Shown here: one piece after another, positions 27,388-51,303 of the stretch
How the letters are laid out: every line of letters starts with the position of its first letter
Position numbering within the stretch: position 1 is the stretch's first letter
Assembly (NCBI GenBank): GCA_003221515.1
Contig: QHSI01000115.1
Location: forward strand, 1-54,725
DNA from: Candidatus Rokuibacteriota bacterium
GTDB taxonomy: Bacteria; Methylomirabilota; Methylomirabilia; Rokubacteriales; CSP1-6
DNA length: 54,725 nucleotides
Reading direction: 5' to 3'
The notes under the pieces: model-generated
What the model saw: the letters and a program-made list of their open reading frames with translations, nothing else
Databases searched by the model: none
What the model was told of the DNA's origin: nothing
Translations under genes and position numbers: made by a program

Positions 27388-29762
<2,375 letters not shown>

Positions 29763-29766
<4 letters not shown>

Positions 29767-30773
29767 TTGAGGCTCAAGAGATAGGCGGCCACGGCGCGCG
29801 CCTGGTCGTCGGTGAGGCCGAGCGCGGGCATCTTCGAGCCCGGCTTCAACGCGATCGGATCCTTGACCCACGCGGCGACGGTCGCGGCCGTGCTCGGGAA
29901 CATGCCGGCCGCCAGTGTCCGCCGGCTCCCGAACGTGGTGAGGTCGGGGCCGAGCGAGCCGGTCGAGACGCCGCGGATGGTGTGGCAGCCGACGCACGCG
30001 CTGCGCGCGTAGATCGCCTTGCCCTCGGCGGCCGGCCCGGTCGGCTCGGCCGGCGTCGCCTTCTGCGCGGCGATCCACCGCTCGAACGTCGCGGGGGCGT
30101 CGACGACCACGCGCAGGCCCATGTTCGCGTGGGAGAGGCCGCAGAACTCGGCGCACTGGCCGCGGTACTCGCCCGGAGTGTCCGGGGTGAAGGTGAGCCG
30201 GTTCAGGCGCCCGGGGACCACGTCGCGCTTGCCGCCGAGCTGCGGCACCCAGAAGCTGTGGATCACGTCGGGGCCGTCGAGCGTGAGGGCGACGGGCCTT
30301 CCGGCCGGCACGTGCAGCTCGTTGGCGGTGACGACGTCGAGCGAGGGATAGCGGAACTCCCACCACCACTGGTGCCCCAGCACCCTGATCTCGAGGGCCG
30401 CCGGGACGGGCGCAGCCTGCGTCCGGAAGATCACCTGGATCGTCGGCACCGCGATCGCCAGCAGGACGAGCGCGGGCGCGATCGTCCATCCGATCTCGAG
30501 CGCCGTGTGGCCGCGCGTCTGGGACGGGAGCGCGGCGTCTCGGCCACGGTAGCGGACGAGGATCCAGACCAGCACGACCGCCACGATCAGTGCGATCGCC
30601 ACCGCCACCCCGGTGATGATCCCGTAGAGGTGGAGGATCGAGCGCGCGAGATCCGAGCGCGCGATCAGCGTCGTCATGGGCCCGTCCCGCGCGCAGCCGC
30701 CGAGCCCGAGGGCGACGTCGAGCGCGCCCATCGACGCCACGAGGCGGCGGATCGGCGCGCGACAGCACGACAT
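29763..30773 (-). CDS. coxB: Cytochrome c oxidase subunit II with fused cytochrome c
   Basis: A 336-residue subunit II. A lipobox-like ALGLGGC near residue 27 suggests a lipid anchor. Two membrane helices follow (ITGVAVAIALIVAVVLVWIL, IGWTIAPALVLLAIAVPTI). The CuA domain has HSFWVPQLGGKRDVVPG and GQCAEFCGLSHANMG with all copper ligands. The C-terminal cytochrome c domain has the heme site SACVGCHTIRG and the axial Met in PGSKMPALGL. The fused heme c defines the caa3 class. It is the first gene of the oxidase operon. Confidence 0.96.
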
Positions 30774-30796
30774 CGGGCCCTCCTGCCGGCGGCCGC

Positions 30797-32047
30797 TCAG
30801 GCGTCCGCGGCGTCGGCCAGTACGAGCAGCGTGTGGAGGAGCGCGTTGGCTCCGCGCTCGATCGCCGCCGGGTCGCTCATCTCGTCGACGCGGTGGCTGC
30901 GTCCGCCCTGGGACGGAATGAAGATCATCCCGGCGTCGACGACGCGCGCGAGGTTCTGCGCGTCGTGACCGGCCGCCGAGTAGAGACGCTGATGTGCCAG
31001 GCCCAGCGTGTCGCACACCTTCTGGATCGTCGCCTGGACGCGTGGCGAGCATTGCGCGGGCGTCGTCGCCGAGACCGGCTGGATCTCCGCCTCGAGGCGG
31101 TGCGCGCGCGCCACTTCGCGGGCGAGCGCGGCGCACTCGCCGGCCAGGCGCTCGAGCACGCCGGCGTCCGGGTCGCGCATCTCGTGCATGAGCTCGGCGC
31201 GGCCGGGGACGATGTTGGAGGCGCCGGGATGGACGCGGACCACACCGAAGTTGGTGACGCTCACATCGCTGCCGCGCGTGACCACGTGCTCGCGAACGCG
31301 CAGCGCGTAGTCGGCGGCGGCCAGGAAGGCATCGCGTCGCCGCGGCATCGGCGTCGTGCCGGCGTGATCGGCCTGGCCGACGAAGATCACGCGGGAGCGC
31401 CGGACGCCCACGATCGCCTCGACGACTCCGATGGGTACGCCCGCCTCTTCCAGCCGGGGGCCCTGCTCGATGTGCAGCTCGACGTAGGACGCCACGGCGC
31501 CCGCCGGCGCTTTCGCCTCGGCCGCGCGATGGGCGTCGAAGCCGGCGCCGGCCATCGCGTCCACGAGCCGCGTGCCGTCCACCGCCGCCATCTCGTCGAT
31601 CCGCGCGGCGTCGAGCAGGCCACAGAAGGCGCGCGAGCCGAAGAGACTGCCGTAGCGGCCTTCCTCGTCGCTCCAGGCCGCCACCACCAGCGGCCGGCGA
31701 TGACGCGTCTTGGTCTCCCGAATGACTTCCAAGCACTCGAGCCCCGCGAGGACGCCGAGCGCGCCGTCGAGCACGCCGCCCTCGGGAACGGTGTCGATGT
31801 GCGAGCCGGTGACGACTGCGGGCGTTTCCGGAACCCACGCGCGGATGCCGTCGGCGCCGAAGACGTTGCCGGCGGGATCGACCCAGGTCTCGAGACCCGC
31901 CGCGCGCATCTCGCCGAGGAGCCACGCCCGCGCCTGTTCATGGGCCGGCGACCAGCAGAATCGTGTGACGCCGCCGCCGGGCAGGGCGCCGAAGCGGGCG
32001 AGCGCATCGATGCGAGAAGTGAGGCGCGGAAGCGAGATGGCGATCAC
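30797..32047 (-). CDS. M20-family hydrolase, N-carbamoyl-amino-acid / allantoate amidohydrolase type
   Basis: Binuclear zinc hydrolase of 416 residues. Motifs: GSHIDTVPEGGVLDGALGVL (metal His and Asp), WSDEEGRYGSLFGSRAF (catalytic and metal Glu), ELHIEQGPRLEEAGVPIGVV, HAGTTPMPRRRD and the late SAAGHDAQNLA. This matches the carbamoylase/allantoate amidohydrolase/ureidoglycolate branch; the substrate is undecided but is likely an N-carbamoyl or ureido compound. It starts at GTG 32047, divergent from the acyl-CoA dehydrogenase pair, with a TATACT box only 8 bp upstream. Confidence 0.88.
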   Translation of the reverse strand: MIAISLPRLTSRIDALARFGALPGGGVTRFCWSPAHEQARAWLLGEMRAAGLETWVDPAGNVFGADGIRAWVPETPAVVTGSHIDTVPEGGVLDGALGVLAGLECLEVIRETKTRHRRPLVVAAWSDEEGRYGSLFGSRAFCGLLDAARIDEMAAVDGTRLVDAMAGAGFDAHRAAEAKAPAGAVASYVELHIEQGPRLEEAGVPIGVVEAIVGVRRSRVIFVGQADHAGTTPMPRRRDAFLAAADYALRVREHVVTRGSDVSVTNFGVVRVHPGASNIVPGRAELMHEMRDPDAGVLERLAGECAALAREVARAHRLEAEIQPVSATTPAQCSPRVQATIQKVCDTLGLAHQRLYSAAGHDAQNLARVVDAGMIFIPSQGGRSHRVDEMSDPAAIERGANALLHTLLVLADAADA

Positions 32048-39936: not shown

Positions 39937-40123
39937 GATTGCTCTGTTCGAAGACTTCCTCGGCCACGGAGATCGCGGGAATCGCGTTGGGCCAGTAAAA
40001 CGTTCCGAGATGCACATCGTCGATCCGCGACCGGCGTGTGCTCGTACGGTGACCCGTGATACAACCGTGGCGGATCACGACGGAACGGATGGACGTGTCG
40101 ATCCACGGCGAGGGAGACCCAGC

Positions 40124-41626
40124 GTGAAGACACTTCGGAACGCCTTGATCATCATCGTGCTCGGCCTGATCGTGCCGGCGCCCGCCCACGCGAAGGACCA
40201 GTGGGTGGTCGCGTTCGGCGACGAGCCCTTCTCGCTCAACCCGGCGAACAAGGGCGCGCAGGCCGTAGTGTCGGACTACGTGATGATCCATCTCTACGAC
40301 GCCCTCATCGACTTCACCGGGCCCGACCTGGCGCTCAAGCCGATGCTGGCCGTCCGCTGGGAGAACCCGAATCCGACGACGTGGCGCTTCACTCTGCGGC
40401 GCGGCGTGAAGTTCCACAACGGCGATCCGCTGACGGCGGAGGACGTGAAGTTCACGGTCGACACCCAGCTCGCCAACAAGGGGAGCTCGATCAACGCATA
40501 CCTGGGACCGACGGAGGGCGCGCGCGTCATCGATCCCCAGACGGTCGAGATCACGACGAAAACCCCGTTTCCTCCACTGATCTTCAACCTCACCCGCCTG
40601 CACATCCTGCCACGCGCCTATGCGAGGGTCGGCATGGACGCGTTCGCGGCGAAGCCGTTCGGCTCCGGACCCTACCGCTTCGTGGAATGGCAGCGCGGCC
40701 AGCGGATCGTGCTCGAGGCCAACCCCGATTACTGGGGCGGCCAGCCGACGCCCAAGCGGCTCGTCTTCCGCCCGATCGCCGATCCGAGCACGCGCGCCGC
40801 GGAGCTCCGCGCGGGGGGCGTCGACATCATCACCAGCCCGCCGATCGCGCAGGTGAAGGAGCTCAACACCGGCGACACGACGATCCTGACCGTGCCGGGC
40901 GCGCGCGTCATCGCCTACCCGATCAACGCGCTCCAGAAGCCGCTCAACGACGTCCGTGTCCGCCGCGCGCTGAACTATGCGGTCGACCGCGAGACGATCG
41001 TGAAGAGCCTCCTCGGGGGTCTGGGGCGCGCGACGGGTCAGCCGTTCACTCCCGGATGGCTCGGCTACGACCCCGAGATCGGTCCCTATCCGTACGATCC
41101 GGCCCAGGCCCGGCGACTGCTGGCCGACGCGGGCTATCCGAGCGGCTTCGAGGTCACCTGGAACATCTCGGTCGGCGTGTTCGTCGCCGACAAGGAGGTC
41201 GCGGAGGCGGCGGCGGCGATGCTGGGACAGGTGGGCGTGCGAGTCAGGCTGGTGCCGACCGAGCGCGCGAAGATCCAGCAGGATCTGCAGTCGTCCACCT
41301 TCGACGGGATCACGGCCGGCCAGTGGGGCACGGTCGCCGAATCGGACATCATGGTCCGCTGGTTCTTCAAGAACCCCAGGATCTTCACGCCCGAGGTGGA
41401 GGGCAAGCTCCACCAGCTCGTGGCGACGGCGGCGGGAGAGCTGGATCGGGACAGGCGCGGCAAGGTCTACCGGGAGCTCGCGAGGTTCGCCCACGACGAG
41501 GCGCTCTGGCTCTTCATCCACCATCAGGACGAGCTGATCGCCAAGCGCCGGGACGTCCCCTGGCAGGTCGTGAGCAGCCGGGGCGGGAAGGCGCATATCT
41601 ACTACTTCGTGCTGGCTCCTCGCTGA
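40124..41626 (+). CDS. ABC transporter substrate-binding protein, family 5 (peptide/nickel type)
   Basis: Periplasmic binding protein of 500 residues with a Sec signal peptide (LRNALIIIVLGLIVPAPAHA, cleavage after AHA). Family 5 features: DEPFSLNPAN, LRRGVKFHNGDPLTAEDVKF, FGSGPYRFVEWQRGQRIVL, NPDYWGG, INALQKPLNDVRVRRALNYA and the lobe near LADAGYPSGFE. Start GTG at 40124 with GGGAG upstream; the longer frame from 40010 would bury the signal peptide. The preceding 187-bp gap holds no gene I can support. It leads a binding-protein/two-permease operon; ligand unknown. Confidence 0.92.
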   Translation: MKTLRNALIIIVLGLIVPAPAHAKDQWVVAFGDEPFSLNPANKGAQAVVSDYVMIHLYDALIDFTGPDLALKPMLAVRWENPNPTTWRFTLRRGVKFHNGDPLTAEDVKFTVDTQLANKGSSINAYLGPTEGARVIDPQTVEITTKTPFPPLIFNLTRLHILPRAYARVGMDAFAAKPFGSGPYRFVEWQRGQRIVLEANPDYWGGQPTPKRLVFRPIADPSTRAAELRAGGVDIITSPPIAQVKELNTGDTTILTVPGARVIAYPINALQKPLNDVRVRRALNYAVDRETIVKSLLGGLGRATGQPFTPGWLGYDPEIGPYPYDPAQARRLLADAGYPSGFEVTWNISVGVFVADKEVAEAAAAMLGQVGVRVRLVPTERAKIQQDLQSSTFDGITAGQWGTVAESDIMVRWFFKNPRIFTPEVEGKLHQLVATAAGELDRDRRGKVYRELARFAHDEALWLFIHHQDELIAKRRDVPWQVVSSRGGKAHIYYFVLAPR

Positions 41627-41651: not shown

Positions 41652-42575
41652 GTGCGCAGGTACGTCGTCGGCCGAGTCCTCCAGGCGCTGGTTGCCCTGC
41701 TCGGGGTGACGTGCGTGGCGTTCCTGCTTGTGTCGCTCTCGGGCGACCCCGCGTTCATTCTGCTCACCCCGGAGGCCGGCGAGGAGCAGCGCGCCGCGTT
41801 CCGGAAACTCTACGGGCTCGATCAGCCACTGCCCGTCCAGTACGCGCGGTACGTGAGCCACGTCGCGCGCGGCGACTTCGGTAGCTCCTTCGCGTTCAAC
41901 CGTCCCGCGATCCAGGTGGTGCTCGAGCGCCTGCCCGCGACGCTGCTCCTGACCGCGACCGCCGTCGCCCTCGGCGTCGTCGTCGGGATGCCCGCTGGCA
42001 TCGCCGCCGCCGTCAAGGCGAGCGGACCGCTCGACCGCCTGGTCATGGCCCTGGTGCTGCTGGGGCAGTCGGTCCCCACGTTCTGGCTCGGCCTCTTGAT
42101 GATCCGGATCTTCGCCGTGAACCTCCGCTGGGTGCCCGTGTCGGGCCACGGGACCGTCCTCCATCTCGTGATGCCCGCCGTCGCGCTCGGGCTCTACCTG
42201 GCCGCCCTGCTCGCCCGCCTGACGCGCTCGGAGATGCTCGAGGCCCTCGCCCAGGACTACGTGCGAACGGCCCGCGCGAAGGGACTGTCAGAGCGCGTGG
42301 TGACCGTGGCGCACGCGCTGAAGAACGCGCTGTTGCCGATCGTGACGCTCATCGGCTTGCAGCTCGGCGCGTTGCTCGGTGGCGCCGTGGTGACCGAGAC
42401 GGTGTTCGCGTGGCCAGGTATCGGATCGCTGGTGCTCGACGCGATCTTGAGGAAGGACTATCCGGTGGTGCTGGCGGCGGTGGAGTTCGTCGCCGCCGCC
42501 TTCATCGTGATCAACATGGCGCTCGACCTGCTCTACGGCTACCTCGACCCCCGGCTGAGGACGGCGCAGACGTGA
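41652..42575 (+). CDS. ABC transporter permease, DppB type
   Basis: A 307-residue inner-membrane permease with six membrane segments, the DppB N-terminus (RRYVVGRVLQALVALLGVTC), YGLDQPLPVQYARY, GDFGSSF, and the EAA loop that contacts the ATPase (MLEALAQDYVRTARAKGLSE). It is followed by its DppC partner with a GTGA overlap. Start GTG at 41652, 25 bp after the binding-protein stop. No ATPase gene of the DppD/DppF type follows, so energising subunits must come from elsewhere in the genome. Confidence 0.93.
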   Translation: MRRYVVGRVLQALVALLGVTCVAFLLVSLSGDPAFILLTPEAGEEQRAAFRKLYGLDQPLPVQYARYVSHVARGDFGSSFAFNRPAIQVVLERLPATLLLTATAVALGVVVGMPAGIAAAVKASGPLDRLVMALVLLGQSVPTFWLGLLMIRIFAVNLRWVPVSGHGTVLHLVMPAVALGLYLAALLARLTRSEMLEALAQDYVRTARAKGLSERVVTVAHALKNALLPIVTLIGLQLGALLGGAVVTETVFAWPGIGSLVLDAILRKDYPVVLAAVEFVAAAFIVINMALDLLYGYLDPRLRTAQT

Positions 42576-43543
42576 GAGTCCCCCAGGAATGGAGTGCCGC
42601 GTCGAGCGGCGAGCGGACCGAGCGCGATCCCGAGCCGCGCCCCAGGTCCCCCGGTGCGCGTGCGAGCGTCCGGGGGCATGGGGGACCCTTCGAGGCCCCC
42701 CATGAAATCGGTCTGCGGGTGTGGCGCGCGGTGGGTCCAGGCGGCGTGGTCGTCGCCGCGGTCGTGCTCCTGGCGCTGCTGGCGCCCGTGCTGGCGCCGC
42801 ACAGCCTCGGCGCGTTCGACCTCACCCACCGTCTTTCCCCGCCGATCTGGGACGCGCGTGGCGACTGGACGCATCCGCTCGGAACGGACACACTCGGCCG
42901 CGACGTGCTGAGTCGCATCCTCCACGGCGCCCGGACCTCGCTCGGCGTCGCGGGTGCGGCTGTCCTCCTGGCCGCGGCGCTCGGCATCCTGCTCGGGCTT
43001 CTCTCCGGATACGCCGGCTCGTGGGCGGATGGCGTCATCATGCGGCTGGCCGAGATCCAGCTCTCGTTCCCTTACCTGCTCCTCGCGATCGCGGTGATGG
43101 CGCTCTTCAAGCCCTCGCTCGTGAACCTGATCGTCGTGCTCGTGCTCAGGAGCTGGGTCGTGTACGCGCGGCTGATCCGCGTGGTGACGCTGAGCGCCCG
43201 GGAGCGGGACTTCGTGGTCGCTGCGCGCGCCCTCGGCGGCCGGGCCGCGCGGATCCTCTTCCGCCACATCGCGCCGAACGTCGTCGGTCCCTCTATAGTG
43301 GTGTCGAGCTTCCAGATCGCCGAGCTGATCATCGTCGAGTCGTCGCTGTCGTTCCTGGGCCTCGGCGTGCAGCCGCCCACGCCGAGCTGGGGCGGGATGG
43401 TCAGCGAGGGCCGCGACTACGTCGGCAGCGCCTGGTGGATCTCGGCGCTCCCCGGCCTCGCCATCGTGGTCACCGTGCTGGGCGCCAACCTCTTCGGCGA
43501 CGCGCTGCGCCGCTCCCTCGACCCGCGCCTGCGCGTGAGCTAA
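42572..43543 (+). CDS. ABC transporter permease, DppC type
   Basis: A 323-residue permease with the DppC features LAPVLAPHSLGAFDLTHRL, HPLGTDTLGRDVLSRILHGA, six membrane segments and the EAA loop (ARERDFVVAARALGGRAARI). The first 50 residues are a Ser/Arg/Pro/Glu-rich cytoplasmic tail encoded by DNA with a strong inverted repeat at 42677-42704, longer and odder than usual for the family. GTG start at 42572 overlaps the dppB stop. Confidence 0.92.
   Translation: MRVPQEWSAASSGERTERDPEPRPRSPGARASVRGHGGPFEAPHEIGLRVWRAVGPGGVVVAAVVLLALLAPVLAPHSLGAFDLTHRLSPPIWDARGDWTHPLGTDTLGRDVLSRILHGARTSLGVAGAAVLLAAALGILLGLLSGYAGSWADGVIMRLAEIQLSFPYLLLAIAVMALFKPSLVNLIVVLVLRSWVVYARLIRVVTLSARERDFVVAARALGGRAARILFRHIAPNVVGPSIVVSSFQIAELIIVESSLSFLGLGVQPPTPSWGGMVSEGRDYVGSAWWISALPGLAIVVTVLGANLFGDALRRSLDPRLRVS
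42677..42704. repeat. Inverted repeat inside the dppC-like N-terminal coding region
   Basis: CATGGGGG (42677-42684) is the exact complement of CCCCCATG (42697-42704), and the 12-bp loop itself can pair CCT with AGG around TCG. It encodes part of the poorly conserved N-terminal tail. It could be an inserted palindromic element kept in frame. Confidence 0.7.
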
Positions 43544-43567: not shown

Positions 43568-44857
43568 ATGCGCCTCGAAGTCGGGACGATTCAGATCCGT
43601 GACGTCGAGATCGGGCGCGCCACCGCGCTCACCGATCACACGCTGGTGATCGATCGCGAGGAGCTTCGGACCCTCGTCCTGGAGGACTCGCACTTCGCAG
43701 ACGTGCAGGTGCACCTCGTGAAGCCGGGCGAGTCCGTGCGCGTCATCCACGTCCTCGACGTCGTGGAGCCGCGCTGGAAGGTCGCCGGCCCCGGCGGCGT
43801 CTTCCCGGGCTTCGTCTCGCCCGCGCTCACGGTCGGCGAGGGACGGACGCACCGGCTCGCCGGGGTGGCCGTCGCCGAGGTCGGCGCGCCGGTGCCGGGC
43901 GAGTCGACCGTCTTCCGCCAGCGGCTCATCGACATGGCGGGTCCAGGCGCGGAACTCTCGCCGTTCGCGCAGACCCTCAACGTGGCCCTCGAGTTCACGC
44001 CTAACATGGCGTGCTTTCCGCCCGGCTCCGAGCAGATCAAGGACTTCCTGACCGGCGGACCGGAGTCCCACGAGTACAACCGCGCGGTGCTGACCGCGGG
44101 CCTCAAGGTGGCGGCGCGTCTCGGACGCACCGCGCGGGAGGCGACGCCGGATGACGTCGAGACCTTCGAGCTGGCCCCGTGCGATCCCGCGCTGCCGCGG
44201 GTCGTCTGTCTGCTCCAGGAGGTCACCGCGACGCCGTTCCTGTACGGCGTGCACGTGTCGCTGCCACTCGGAGCGCTGCTCCACCCCAACGAGTTCTTCG
44301 ACGGCGCGGTCGTGCGCTGGAATCGCGGATACGTCGGCTCGACCTACGGGGAGCAGAACCATCCCGTCCTCGTGGAGCTCTGCCGACGCCACGGTCGCGA
44401 CTTGAACTTCGTCGGGTGCATCGTGTTCGGCGGGACGACGGTGTCGTCTGCGGAGAAGGAAGCGTCGTCGAGCGCGGTGGCCAAGATGGCGCGCGTCCTC
44501 GGCGCGGACGCAGCTCTCGTGATCGGCCTGAACGGCTCGAACCACGCCGTCGATCTCATGCTGAGCATCCAGAAGTGCGAGCGCGCCGGCATCAAGACGA
44601 CACTTGTCTACAACGACGTCGGCGAGGGCCCCGACGATCCGGGCTTCATCTTCGCGGTCCCCGAGGCCGACGCGATCGTGAGCGCTGGGAGCCGCGTGCA
44701 GAAGGTGACGCTGCCGAGGATGGCGAGGCTCATCGGCGGCGAGCACCTTGTCGATCCGTACATGGACGCGCGGGGCGAGCTGACCGTGCCGATGCGCTAT
44801 CTCTGCTGCTCTGTCGATACCACCGCGAACACGCGGCAGACCGTCCGGTTCGAGTAG
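43568..44857 (+). CDS. Glycine/sarcosine/betaine reductase component B, GrdE-like subunit
   Basis: A 429-residue protein similar over its length to proprotein GrdE of clostridial glycine reductase component B: LEVGTIQIRDVEIG, HVLDVVEPRWKVAGPGGVFP, HPNEFFDGAVV, NHPVLVELCRRHGRDLNFVG, KEASSSAVAKMARVLGADAA and KCERAGIKTTLVYNDV. In clostridial GrdE an Asn-Cys bond is cleaved and the Cys becomes a pyruvoyl group that binds the substrate amine. The aligned site here reads W-N-R-G (Asn252-Arg253), so no pyruvoyl group can form there; Cys284 in NFVGCIVF is not at that place. The alignment is from memory. It precedes the GrdB-like selenoprotein gene, separated by two 99-bp repeats. GGAGGACCATC precedes the ATG. 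Confidence 0.85.
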   Translation: MRLEVGTIQIRDVEIGRATALTDHTLVIDREELRTLVLEDSHFADVQVHLVKPGESVRVIHVLDVVEPRWKVAGPGGVFPGFVSPALTVGEGRTHRLAGVAVAEVGAPVPGESTVFRQRLIDMAGPGAELSPFAQTLNVALEFTPNMACFPPGSEQIKDFLTGGPESHEYNRAVLTAGLKVAARLGRTAREATPDDVETFELAPCDPALPRVVCLLQEVTATPFLYGVHVSLPLGALLHPNEFFDGAVVRWNRGYVGSTYGEQNHPVLVELCRRHGRDLNFVGCIVFGGTTVSSAEKEASSSAVAKMARVLGADAALVIGLNGSNHAVDLMLSIQKCERAGIKTTLVYNDVGEGPDDPGFIFAVPEADAIVSAGSRVQKVTLPRMARLIGGEHLVDPYMDARGELTVPMRYLCCSVDTTANTRQTVRFE

Positions 44858-45052
44858 GCCGTGTCGGAGTACGGAAATCGAGGAGTGCCACGGGTTTCCC
44901 GGGGCGCTCCGAGCGTTGGGGGTTTGGGGGCCATGCGGGGTCCCCATGTTCAATAGGCCGTGTCGGAGGACGGAAATCGAGGAGCGCCACGGGTTTCCCG
45001 GGGCGCTCCAAGCGTTGGGGGTTTGGGGGCCATGCGGGGCCCCCATGTTCAA
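44855..45052 (+). repeat. Two tandem copies of a 99-bp structured repeat between grdE-like and grdB-like genes
   Basis: Units 44855-44953 and 44954-45052 differ at four positions. Each begins TAGGCCGTGTCGG, and the first TAG is the stop codon of the grdE-like gene. Each can form hairpin 1 (GGAGYGCC paired with GGCGCTCC around an inner CGGG-TTT-CCCG stem; 44882-44910 and 44981-45009) and hairpin 2 (GGGGGCC paired with GGYCCCC; 44926-44945 and 45025-45044). Two of the four differences are in stems and swap a G-U wobble for a G-C pair, preserving the fold. The second unit ends directly at the ribosome binding site AGGAGG of the grdB-like gene. Confidence 0.95.
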
Positions 45053-45064
45053 TAGGAGGACGCG

Positions 45065-46366
45065 ATGGCCACGCTTCGAGTCGTGCACTACCTGAACCAG
45101 TTCTTCGCCGGCATCGGCGCCGAGGACAGGGCCGATACGCCGCCGGATCATCGGGAAGGACCGGTCGGTCCGGGACGTCTGCTCCAGCAGGCCCTCGGGG
45201 ATCGCGCAGAGATCGTCGCCACCGTGTACTGCGGCGACAACTACGCCGGCGAGAAGCCGGGCGCGGTCGACGAGATCCTCGATCTCGTCGCCGAGCATCG
45301 ACCGGAGATCGTGATCGCGGGGCCGGCGTTCTCCGCGGGGCGCTACGGCCTGGCCTGCGGCGAGGTGACGCGCCGCGCCCGCGAGCGTCTCGGCGTGATC
45401 GCGGTTACGGGCATGCACATCGATAACGCGGCGACCGAGGTCTATCGGACGAGGCTCCATATCGCGAGCACGCCGCGGACGGCGGCCGGCATGGCCGACG
45501 GGCTCGCGATCATGGCCCGGCTGGCGCTGAAGCTCGCGTCCGGGACTGCGCTTGGCACGCCGGCCGACGAAGGATACGTCCCGACCGGCCGCCGGATCTT
45601 CGAGATGGCCGAACGCCCGGCGCCGCTGCGCGCCGTCGAGATGCTGCTCCGCAAGGTCCGCGGTGAGCCGTACACGACCGAGTGGCCCGTCCCTCGCTAC
45701 CACCGCGTCCCCGCCGCGCCGCCGCTCCAGGACACGGCGCAAGCGACCATCGCGCTGGTGACGACCGGCGGTCTGGTGCCGCACGGGAACCCCGATCGCC
45801 TGGAGTCGGGCTTCGCGACGAAGTGGCTCCGGTATTCCATCGCCGGCGTGGACGCGCTTCCTCCGGAGCGGTGGCAGTCGGTCCACGGCGGCTTCAACAC
45901 CTCGCGCATCAACGAGGATCCGCACCGGGTGCTCCCGCTCGACGTGGCGCGCGAGCTGGAGCGCGAGGGCGTCATCGGACGCCTCCACCCCGAGTTCTAC
46001 TCCACGACCGGCAACACCTCCGTCATCCCCACGATGCGTCGCTTTGCCCAGGAGATGGGCCGCGAGCTCCGGGCGGCCGGGGTGGACGGCGTGATCCTCA
46101 CGTCCACCTGAGGGTCGTGCAACCGCGGCGGCGCCGCGCTCGCGAAGGAAATCGACACGCTCGGCATCCCCATCGTCCAGATCAGCGCCCTCGACGCGCT
46201 CGCGAAGTCGGTCGGCTCGAACCGCATCGTGCGGGGCAAGGCCATCACCAGCATCGTGGGCGATCCGGACCTGAGCCCGGCGGAGGAGCGGCGGTTCAGG
46301 AAGCGCCTCGTGGTGAAGGCGCTCGAGGCGCTGCGGACGCCAGTCGAGGATCAGCTCGTCGTGTGA
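45065..46366 (+). CDS. Selenoprotein: glycine/betaine/sarcosine/D-proline reductase component B, GrdB-like
   Basis: A 433-residue protein with selenocysteine encoded by the in-frame TGA at 46109-46111 (residue 349). The N-terminal part has RVVHYLNQFFAGIGAEDRAD, VYCGDNYAGE and PAFSAGRYGLACGEV, as in GrdB. The active site reads VILTST-U-GSCNRGGA, against the usual TST-U-GTCTRCGA: the first Cys is kept and the second is lost. After the TGA the frame continues 84 codons with family-like sequence (EIDTLGIPIVQISALDALAK, SVGSNRIVRGKAI, GDPDLSPAEERRFRKRLVVK) to a TGA at 46364, giving the normal GrdB length. Stopping at the first TGA would remove the active site. AGGAGG is 5 bp before the ATG. It probably forms component B with the GrdE-like protein; substrate unknown. 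Confidence 0.9.
46115..46145 (+). promoter_or_regulatory. Putative bacterial SECIS hairpin for Sec insertion
   Basis: Directly after the UGA the mRNA can fold into a lower stem UCGUG/CGCGA (46115-46119 with 46141-46145), an internal loop (CAAC opposite CU), an upper stem CGCGGC/GCCGCG (46124-46129 with 46133-46138) and a GGC apical loop at 22-24 nt counted from the U of UGA. Bacterial SECIS elements known from fdhF also have a bulged hairpin with loop guanines about 20-24 nt from the UGA. The 3-nt loop is tight and might open by one pair. Confidence 0.65.
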
Positions 46367-48435: not shown

Positions 48436-49193
48436 GCCTCGCGTGCCTGGTCGCGCTGTTCCTGCTGCTGCCGATCGTGATCGTGGTGCCGATGTCGTTC
48501 AGCACCGCGATCTCGTTCGAGTTCCCGCCGCCGGGCTACTCGCTCGGCTACTACGCGAAGTTCTTCACCAGCGAGGAGTGGCTCGAGCCGACGCTGAATA
48601 GCCTCGTCATCGCGCTCGGGGCCACCGCGCTCACCATGCTCCTCGTCGTGCCGGCGGCGTTCGGCTACGTGCGCTACCGGTTCCGCGGCAAGGCCCTGGT
48701 GAACCTCCTCATGATGGCGCCGTTGATCGTGCCGCACGTGGTGAGCGCGCTCGCATACTACGGCTTCCTCGGGCGCGCCCGGCTGACCGGCACCCACCTC
48801 GGCGTCATCGTCGCCCACGGCGTCCTCGCGGTGCCGGTGGCCTTCCTCGTCATCAGCGCAACCCTCAAGGGCTTCGACCGGAACCTCGAGCGCGCCGCCA
48901 TGAGCTCGGGCGCGGGTCCGCTCCGGACGTTCTTTCACGTGACCCTGCCGGTGCTGCGACCCGGCATGCTAGTGGGGGCGCTGTTCGCGTTCCTGTCCTC
49001 GTTCAACGAGGCGGTGGTGGTGATTTTCATCGGGGGCCGCGGGGCGGCCACCCTCCCCAAGAAGATGTACGAGAGCATTCGTCTCGAGTCCGACCCCGTG
49101 ATCGCGGTCGTCTCCACGCTCCTCGTCAGCGCGGTGGTGCTCGGCGTCCTCGTGTCGGCGTTCCTGCGCCCGAGAGGGGCGAATGCGGCTTGA
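48426..49193 (+). CDS. ABC transporter permease, PotC-like
   Basis: A 255-residue permease. The ATG at 48426 (MGLSLACLVALFLLLPIVIV) gives a normal PotC start; SFSTAISFEFPPPGYSLGYY, NSLVIALGATALTMLLVVPA and the EAA loop LERAAMSSGAGPLRTFFHVT are present. It overlaps the acyl-CoA synthetase gene by 11 bp. Confidence 0.92.
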   Translation: MGLSLACLVALFLLLPIVIVVPMSFSTAISFEFPPPGYSLGYYAKFFTSEEWLEPTLNSLVIALGATALTMLLVVPAAFGYVRYRFRGKALVNLLMMAPLIVPHVVSALAYYGFLGRARLTGTHLGVIVAHGVLAVPVAFLVISATLKGFDRNLERAAMSSGAGPLRTFFHVTLPVLRPGMLVGALFAFLSSFNEAVVVIFIGGRGAATLPKKMYESIRLESDPVIAVVSTLLVSAVVLGVLVSAFLRPRGANAA

Positions 49194-51303
49194 CGCCCTG
49201 CTCCGTCCCCGCTCGATCGCGATCCTCGGCGCCTCCGAGCGCCCGTCGATCGGCCGTGCCCTCATGGAGTCGGCGGTCACGCTCGGCTACCAGGGCCGGC
49301 TCTACCCGATCAATCCGAGGTACACGGAGATCCTCGGGCAGCGCTGTTATCCGAGCATGCGGGAGCTCCCGGAGCAGCCCGACGTGGTGGCGCTGTGCGT
49401 CTCCTACACGCGCATGGTCGAGAGCTTCCGCACCGTGGCCGACAAGGGCGCGGGCGCAGCCGTCATCTACGACGGCGGATTCGCCGAGCACGGCGACGAG
49501 GGCCGTCGGCGTCAGGCCGAGCTGGTCGGGATGTGCTGCGAGGCCGGGATCGCGCTGTGCGGCCCCAACTGCATGGGCATCCTCAATCCGCACCACCGGA
49601 GCTCCGTCTACATGCAGGAGGTGCGCGATCCCGCCGGGCTCGCCGGCAACGTGGCGCTGGTGTCGCAGAGCGGGTCCATCTGCATCGGCATGCTGGCCGA
49701 CATCCGGCGCTTCGGCTTCAGCCACGTCGTCTCCTCCGGCAACGAGGCGGTCGTCGGCACGGCGCAGTATCTGGAGGCGCTGGTCGACGATACCGACACC
49801 AGGGTGATCGCGACGTTCACCGAGTGGATCGCCGAGCCCGAGCGTTACGTGGCCGTGCTCGACCGCGCCGCGGATGCCGGCAAGCCGGTCGTGGTACTGA
49901 AGGTCGGCCGCCACGAGCGCACGCGGCGCGCCATCGGCACCCACACCGGCGGTCTCGCCGGTGAGTCCGCGGTCTTCTCGGCGATGCTCCGAGCGCACCG
50001 CGCCATCGAGGTGAGCGACCTGGACGAGCTCACGGAAGTGCTGGCGGTGTGCCAGGGCCGGCGCTGGCCCACGGGCCGGCGGCTGGCCGTCGTCACCGCC
50101 TCGGGCGGTCAGGCCGAGCTGATCCTCGACGTGGCCACCGCCGCCGGGCTCGAGCTGCCGCCGCTCTCGGCCGAAGGCCGCAAGGAGATCGAGCGCGTGA
50201 TCGGCCCCGTCACGGGCGACGGCAACCCGCTCGACGCCTGGGGGAACGGCGGCTACGACACCAACATGCCGCACGCGCTCGCGACGCTCGACGCCGCGGC
50301 CGTGGACGCGATCGCCTTCTGCAGCGACAGTCACGACGATGCGCCGATGGGTCGCGCCGACCGCGCGCTGGGCTACAGCCGGCTCCTCGCCGCCGCCGCT
50401 GCGCGGAGCGCCAAGCCGCACTATCAGATGAACATGCGCCCGGGCGTCATGCGCCGCGAGCAGGTGCGCTTCCTGGCCGAGCACGGCATCGCGACCATCG
50501 GGGGCACACGCCAGGGCCTCGCGGCGATCGATCACCTCGCGCGCTGGGCGGGGCCGCCGCCGCCGACGCGCCGGATCGACGCGCCCGGTGGCGTCGGCGT
50601 GGCGAGCCTGCTCGGAGGGCGCGCGCGGCCGACGATCCACGAGCACGACGCCAAGCGGCTCCTCGCCCAGCACGGCCTGTCGGTCGTTCGCGAGCGTCTC
50701 GTCCGGTCGGTCGGCGACGCGCGCAAGGCGGCGCACGACCTCGGATACCCTGTCGTCCTCAAGGTCGTGGCGGACGACTTGCCCCATCGCTCGGATCTGG
50801 GGCTGGTGCGCGTCGGCCTCGTGGACGCCGCGGCGCTCGAGGCCGCCTGGGCGACTCTGGAGCGCCGCCTGCGCGAGACGACACCGCGGACCTCGATCGA
50901 CGGCTTCGTTGTCCAGGCGTTGATCGCGGGGGGCGTGGAGGTGTTCGCCGGCGTGAAGCGCGATCCCGCCTTCGGACACTTCCTCGCCTTCGGCGTCGGC
51001 GGCGTTGCCGTCGAAGTGCTCCGTGACTTCGCCCTGCGCCAGCTGCCGCTCCGGGACGGCGACGCGGAGGCGATGGTCGGCGAGATCCGGGGCGCGGCGC
51101 TGCTCGGGGCCGTGCGCGGACAGCCGGCCGCGGACGTCCCGGCCCTCGTCCGCTGTCTCTACGCCCTCGGCGACTTCGCATGGGCCAACCGCGCGGACAT
51201 CGCCGAGATCGATCTCAACCCGATCAAGGTGTTGCCCGCCGGGCACGGCGCCGTCGTCGTCGACGCCTTGATCGTTCCGTCTCCCCGGGAAAGGACGGAG
51301 TGA
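49183..51303 (+). CDS. NDP-forming acyl-CoA synthetase
   Basis: A 706-residue enzyme with the fused alpha-beta layout of ADP/NDP-forming acyl-CoA synthetases. A CoA-binding Rossmann domain opens the protein (LRPRSIAILGASERPSIGRA), then the ligase domains with CGPNCMGILNP, VSQSGSICIGML and the phospho-His region THTGGLAGESAVFSAMLRA, and a C-terminal ATP-grasp domain from about residue 490 (HEHDAKRLLAQHGLSVVRER, VVADDLPHRSDLGLVRVGL, DIAEIDLNPIKV). It would activate a small carboxylate with CoA or run in reverse to conserve ATP. It sits inside the polyamine-type importer operon, overlapping potC and potA, so its substrate may be what the importer brings in. Confidence 0.9.
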   Translation: MRLDALLRPRSIAILGASERPSIGRALMESAVTLGYQGRLYPINPRYTEILGQRCYPSMRELPEQPDVVALCVSYTRMVESFRTVADKGAGAAVIYDGGFAEHGDEGRRRQAELVGMCCEAGIALCGPNCMGILNPHHRSSVYMQEVRDPAGLAGNVALVSQSGSICIGMLADIRRFGFSHVVSSGNEAVVGTAQYLEALVDDTDTRVIATFTEWIAEPERYVAVLDRAADAGKPVVVLKVGRHERTRRAIGTHTGGLAGESAVFSAMLRAHRAIEVSDLDELTEVLAVCQGRRWPTGRRLAVVTASGGQAELILDVATAAGLELPPLSAEGRKEIERVIGPVTGDGNPLDAWGNGGYDTNMPHALATLDAAAVDAIAFCSDSHDDAPMGRADRALGYSRLLAAAAARSAKPHYQMNMRPGVMRREQVRFLAEHGIATIGGTRQGLAAIDHLARWAGPPPPTRRIDAPGGVGVASLLGGRARPTIHEHDAKRLLAQHGLSVVRERLVRSVGDARKAAHDLGYPVVLKVVADDLPHRSDLGLVRVGLVDAAALEAAWATLERRLRETTPRTSIDGFVVQALIAGGVEVFAGVKRDPAFGHFLAFGVGGVAVEVLRDFALRQLPLRDGDAEAMVGEIRGAALLGAVRGQPAADVPALVRCLYALGDFAWANRADIAEIDLNPIKVLPAGHGAVVVDALIVPSPRERTE

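Follow-up and report, generated by a model that had tools for sequence, protein, structure and literature searches.

The grdB-like locus

The window, i.e. the whole 54,725-nucleotide stretch of DNA analysed here, belongs to a draft genome of Candidatus Rokuibacteriota (5.1 Mb, 191 contigs, 95.4% complete), which is probably a metagenome bin. Its nearest named relatives are the Candidatus Rokuibacteriota MAGs AR8 and AR26, members of the Methylomirabilota. The features around a grdB-like gene in this window are listed in Table 1. The gene begins with an ATG, carries an in-frame TGA in the context T-S-T-U-G-S-C-N-R-G-G, and, after a further 84 sense codons, ends at a second TGA. An initial annotation of the sequence had described this read-through frame and its family-length end, and frame, coordinates and motif all proved exact. 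Translation with table 11 truncates the open reading frame at 46111, leaving 348 residues; a standard gene caller does, as had been foreseen, cut the protein before its active site. The peptide EIDTLGIPIVQISALDALAK is an example of what is encoded downstream of the TGA. Upstream of the ATG, the sequence TAGGAGG is retained in two relatives, G054 and G063.

Table 1. Features of the grdB-like locus and the oxidase genes of the same contig
Feature	Position	Strand	Basis
caa3-type cytochrome oxidase (COX1+COX3 fusion; COX2 with cytochrome c)	27388..31925	-	same contig
ABC importer solute-binding protein, family 5 (DppA/NikA type)	40010..41626	+	Pfam SBP_bac_5 6.8e-94
ABC importer permease, DppB/GsiC type	41652..42575	+	NCBIfam Opp2B-type 9.7e-100, under model cut-off
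ABC importer permease, second subunit	42410..43543	+	Pfam BPD_transp_1 at residues 192-375
grdE/G/I-like component B partner subunit, 429 aa, Arg at pyruvoyl Cys242 position	43568..44857	+	Pfam Gly_reductase 1e-89; alignment
Two tandem copies of a dispersed palindromic GC-rich repeat between the component B genes	44855..45052	+	99 bp, 96% identical
Shine-Dalgarno-like AGGAGG, 5 nt upstream of ATG	45054..45059	+	read from sequence
grdB-like gene, component B selenoprotein subunit, 433 aa with predicted Sec349	45065..46366	+	Pfam GRDB, TIGR01918, AF2 model
UGA codon predicted to be decoded as selenocysteine (residue 349)	46109..46111	+	stop codon in 105/105 aligned homologues
bSECIS hairpin, 6-bp stem CGCGGC/GCCGCG, loop GGC at 46130-46132	46124..46138	+	18 nt after UGA
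Terminal TGA stop	46364..46366	+	family's usual length (TIGR01918 profile 1-429 of 431)

The read-through protein showed high similarity to Pfam GRDB (E 1.1e-129) and, over residues 5-432, to TIGR01918 (E 1.1e-143). Its score of 479.3 bits exceeded the cut-off of this NCBIfam profile (65.45) over the whole length. Thus, the label 'GrdB-like', which was to be checked against Pfam GRDB, is correct at the subfamily level. An AlphaFold2 model had a mean pLDDT of 93.7, with residues 350-433 at about 93-98. In this model, Sec349 lies between a strand (342-347) and a helix (350-365), and the part encoded after the TGA is integral to the fold. No relative of the protein was found in the PDB by sequence, profile or fold (Foldseek TM-scores about 0.15-0.26), so the fold search is uninformative on function.

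The gene upstream of grdB encodes a putative partner subunit, and this grdE-grdB adjacency is shared with G054 and G063. Further upstream lie the genes of an ABC importer. The coordinate 42410 given for its second permease is only the most upstream start; translation probably begins beyond 42575.

Decoding of the in-frame TGA

In the joint alignment, all 105 homologues covering the column of the TGA have a stop codon there and none has a cysteine, in agreement with the earlier assignment of T-S-T-U-G-S-C as the Sec site of GrdB. The stop codon was verified as TGA in the named and Rokubacterial sequence sets, including 83/83 covering matches from named genomes. Across 95 genomes of the phylum, the homologues spanning the Sec site read through the TGA. 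The closest full-length ortholog found, that of G063, is 89% identical and has the same TGA and no frameshift. After the TGA, 77/84 residues are identical between the two proteins with a dN/dS of 0.23 (0.14 before the TGA). The codons after the TGA are thus not there by chance.

The hairpin that follows the TGA agrees with the bSECIS model of PMC13188914. Among 22 distinct Rokubacterial sequences, 98.7% of the pair cells of the stem were standard. Pair 18-28 was U-A or C-G, while pair 19-27 was U-A, G-C or A-U. Neither the observed pairing nor the observed covariation score was reached in any of 500 shuffles, a control that does not remove relatedness. Further, the loop was GGN in 101/101 sequences. 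In the window protein (UGSCNRG), the inner cysteine of the U-x-x-C-x-x-C motif is kept and the outer one is glycine, a replacement confined to the small clade of the window protein and, at the same position, one Planctomycete. The outer codon has changed from TGC to GGC and the opposite side of the stem from GCA to GCC; this compensating change preserves the hairpin though the residue is altered. The folding energy of the single sequence gave a z-score that was not significant at this GC content. Single-sequence folding is therefore uninformative here, and the comparative test is the only informative one. An Rfam search of the region gave no match.

The machinery for selenocysteine insertion is also encoded in the genome. 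A tRNA-Sec gene (selC, 69.8 bits) forms one cluster with selB and selA on contig C184, and selD, with an in-frame TGA of its own, lies on contig C150. In profile searches of the genome all four exceeded their curated cut-offs. Such equipment is in line with published work, in which one Methylomirabilota MAG is predicted to carry 63 selenoprotein genes (PMC13188914). The two signs named beforehand as speaking against selenocysteine were looked for: the frame of G063 is intact after the TGA, and selABCD are all present. A read-through TGA in a GrdB-family gene is thus confirmed as real. Selenocysteine at residue 349 is well supported by the concurrence of SECIS, covariation, conservation, sel genes and the absence of any Cys homologue, and its prediction is as sure as computation allows.

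Other grd genes in the genome and phylum

Three full-length GrdB proteins are encoded in the genome, on the contig of the window (C101) and on contigs C107 and C94. There is one GrdA, with an in-frame TGA. One GrdC was found near GrdA on C107, in a search that covered extracted stretches of the genome. Neither GrdA nor GrdC was found near the window genes. The C107 cluster (L026 5942-15123) consists of GrdE, GrdB, GrdC and the TGA-containing GrdA, with AroM and luciferase-like monooxygenase genes adjoining; GrdD was not found in it. On C94, a third GrdB/GrdE pair (L027 2310-9708) stands beside a divergent ABC importer of the branched-chain amino acid type, as expected if each importer has its own B unit. 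A single selenoprotein A and a single GrdC apparently serve three B units, each of them linked to an importer. Leong et al. (PMC10838667) described an arrangement of this kind in Cloacibacillus, where extra B units supply one A + C system.

With GrdD of Caldanaerobacter as query, the genome yielded weak partial matches only, covering roughly 90 residues at E values of about 1e-6 to 1e-8. Such matches occur about once per genome and look like PlsX. The absence of GrdD is not final, as the draft is only 95% complete, though the relatives agree. Within the phylum, full-length GrdB is present in 15/16 genomes with GrdA (Fisher 5e-13, a value that ignores relatedness); GrdA was not seen in four relatives that have full GrdB. 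Together with the lack of GrdA and GrdC near the window genes, these four suggest that component A may at times be dispensable.

A separate branch of component B

A tree of 106 GrdB sequences, obtained by a quick search with midpoint rooting only, split into groups of 39 and 67 (SH-aLRT 99). The 67-member clade is the classical one and chiefly comprises Bacillota. The 39-member branch holds all Rokubacterial sequences, along with Betaproteobacteria, Chloroflexi, several deltaproteobacterial bins, a Planctomycete and Desulfofundulus. Within it, the window protein clusters with Chloroflexi and Burkholderiales bins.

In GrdE, the cysteine that is turned into the pyruvoyl group is residue 242, and a peptide 242-266 of C. 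difficile GrdE has been reported (PMC9908766). This cysteine is present in 56/58 classical partners and in 0/35 partners of the 39-member branch. In annotated references, glycine GrdE and sarcosine GrdG have cysteine at the position and betaine GrdI has phenylalanine; the window partner has arginine. GrdD occurs in 40/65 classical loci vs 1/36 loci of the other branch, the loci being of differing length. Similarly, the UxxCxxC motif is intact in 63/67 classical vs 14/38 other-branch proteins. Fisher values for such comparisons ignore relatedness. A GrdB branch whose partner would lack the pyruvoyl group, judged from the missing cysteine, goes beyond the initial annotation.

The window protein has much in common with classical GrdB (TIGR01917; Peptoclostridium, Caldanaerobacter, C. 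difficile), namely the family, the Sec position, TSTUG, the GGN loop of the SECIS and a GrdE-type partner, and it is 49.5% identical to GrdB of Caldanaerobacter. However, it falls under the equivalog cut-off, its second Cys is Gly and its partner is without the pyruvoyl Cys242. Its locus also differs in having no grdX/trx/grdA/C/D operon and in the adjoining ABC importer, and GrdD was not found. The betaine system (GrdH/GrdI) likewise has a partner without the pyruvoyl Cys and a component B pair beside a transporter gene. Identity to these two proteins is 41.5% and 34%, respectively. The betaine locus of Enterococcus gilvus has a BCCT carrier in place of the ABC importer, and betaine reductase keeps UxxCxxC, whereas the window protein does not.

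Proposed function and alternative readings

One explanation accommodates these observations and, in our judgement, is very probably correct: a Sec-decoded component B, made of a GrdB- and a GrdE-type subunit, acts on an imported substrate that is not bound through a pyruvoyl group, shares component A and GrdC with other B units, and releases its acyl group by a route other than acetyl phosphate. The sequence itself shows the signals for Sec decoding, a paired component B, the absence of the cysteine and a single grdA and grdC; from these we infer what reaction takes place, on which class of substrate, with A and C shared in trans, and to which acceptor the acyl group passes. The window protein would work as a component B, and it should not be classed as a glycine reductase.

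In the proposed pathway, the TGA at 46109 would be translated as selenocysteine by means of the bSECIS hairpin, SelB, tRNA-Sec, SelA and SelD. Together with the protein encoded next to it upstream, the product would form the substrate-specific component B of a glycine-reductase-like selenoenzyme, with the substrate entering by the adjoining DppABC-like transporter. Sec349 may then attack the alpha carbon of the substrate, with release of the leaving group. The resulting Se-bound carboxymethyl group would be handed to selenoprotein A, whose only gene lies elsewhere in the genome, and then to GrdC. The substrate is probably neither glycine nor sarcosine because the partner is without the Cys that becomes the pyruvoyl group, and it may be bound without this cofactor, as with betaine or fluoroacetate. 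The acyl group is probably not released as acetyl phosphate, since GrdD was not found, and may be transferred to another acceptor such as CoA. GrdD reportedly carries the thiol for the final step of acetyl phosphate formation, according to work on E. acidaminophilum.

An ordinary component B of glycine (or sarcosine) reductase, serving Stickland-type fermentation in anoxic soil microsites with acetyl phosphate as the end product, would account for the family, the Sec site and the SECIS, which are as in classical GrdB, and for grdA and grdC in the genome. We regard it as unlikely. The window protein scored 450.2 bits against a cut-off of 602.2 for glycine GrdB (TIGR01917), which five reference proteins passed with 603-779. 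Sarcosine GrdF was the second-best NCBIfam model, but the score of 478.4 bits was far from its cut-off of 800, and GrdG keeps the pyruvoyl Cys. The score for betaine GrdH was also below its cut-off (415.2 vs 775). In addition, a complete U-x-x-C-x-x-C motif is lacking in the window protein, which lies outside the classical clade, its partner has Arg in place of the Cys of a pyruvoyl-type GrdE, and GrdD was not found in the 95% complete draft. Classical glycine fermentation is probably the wrong model, given that the partners of this branch are without the pyruvoyl Cys.

A reductive dehalogenase of a halogenated acid, or another component B that cleaves a xenobiotic, is considerably less likely still. 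The fluoroacetate system FarB/FarE of Cloacibacillus porcorum MFA1 likewise shows a departure from the Cys pattern of GrdB, a partner without the pyruvoyl-forming cysteines, as in betaine GrdI, and an extra B unit feeding a common A + C system; fluoroacetate cannot form a Schiff base (PMC10838667). However, the partner subunit scored only 135.2 bits against the FarE cut-off of 675. The importer is of the DppABC type and not a FarA-type antiporter, no radical SAM gene was found adjacent to the locus, and absence of the Cys fits a betaine-type enzyme equally well.

Insertion of cysteine or tryptophan at the UGA, by near-cognate suppression or an altered code, seems highly improbable. The inserted residue cannot be told from the sequence alone, yet the code is unchanged, as the gene itself terminates at TGA and table-11 reading frames fill the window. 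Besides a SECIS, the complete Sec machinery is encoded in the genome; a Cys codon occurs at this site in none of the homologues, and in characterised GrdB the homologous residue is selenocysteine (PMC13188914). Genuine termination at the TGA, or a TGA that arose by sequencing error or pseudogene formation, with relic codons after it, as the end of the standard gene call or the probable origin of the assembly as a metagenome bin might suggest, is barely credible in view of the same TGA in separate genomes (105/105 homologues), purifying selection after it (dN/dS 0.23), covarying SECIS pairs, intact selABCD and a post-TGA part that is predicted to fold confidently with the rest.

If the preferred explanation of an imported, non-pyruvoyl-bound substrate is true, Sec-dependent cleavage of C-N (or C-X) bonds by component B extends beyond amino-acid fermenters, and respiring soil bacteria would harvest imported compounds by reductive cleavage. 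Such enzymes are easily overlooked in soil metagenomes because ordinary gene callers cut their genes at the TGA. The split in the pyruvoyl Cys would serve as a sequence marker that tells apart two chemical classes of component B enzymes and directs substrate searches. A wider generalization is possible, if somewhat doubtful: a pyruvoyl-less and mostly GrdD-less branch in soil Rokubacteria, some Betaproteobacteria, Chloroflexi and others, in which importer-linked B units share A and GrdC, may feed acyl units (e.g. acyl-CoA) to the central metabolism of respiring cells instead of serving as an acetyl-phosphate electron sink.

Oxygen and the host

The initial annotation had placed this GrdB in an apparently aerobic bacterium and contrasted it with the strict anaerobes that harbour classical GrdB. 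The caa3-type oxidase on the same contig bears on the first point, but published Rokubacteria genomes encode aerobic respiration together with fermentation and nitrogen respiration (PMC5712423). 'Aerobic' should therefore read 'able to respire oxygen', and the host probably respires oxygen as a facultative organism. The contrast with strict anaerobes is weaker than proposed, since GrdB/PrdB-type selenoproteins are known in surface seawater (PMC1088965) and in a microaerophile (PMC1794560). Selenoprotein-rich Methylomirabilota and GrdB outside strict anaerobes have thus both been reported already.

Intergenic repeat and further observations

The 99-bp repeat between the component B genes is present as one copy at the same site in the G054 ortholog and is absent from that of G063. 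It matches about 28 sites in the genome, where tandem units beside gene ends are frequent, and resembles a REP/BIME-type dispersed element of Rokubacteria. In several relatives, the same repeat stands just before grdA or grdB (L070 3677-3746, L072 10535-10609, L076 3122-3175, L061 2346-2401, L067 51-219); this is probably due to chance or sampling. The repeat is not part of Sec decoding. A role as a regulatory element of selenoprotein genes was rejected, as copies elsewhere in the genome flank unrelated genes.

Just downstream of grdB, an ADP-forming acyl-CoA ligase gene (49183-51303), considered as a possible partner of the reductase, lies within a separate PotD-type transporter cluster; the same ligase was not seen downstream of grdB on the short G063 contig (L059). 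Its product could generate ATP from acyl-CoA. A further homologue in the genome, the fourth, is shorter and PrdB-like and also has an in-frame TGA (L028 9129-9671; G000:C93:18128-18670), and short TGA-containing homologues of this type are present in most genomes of the phylum.
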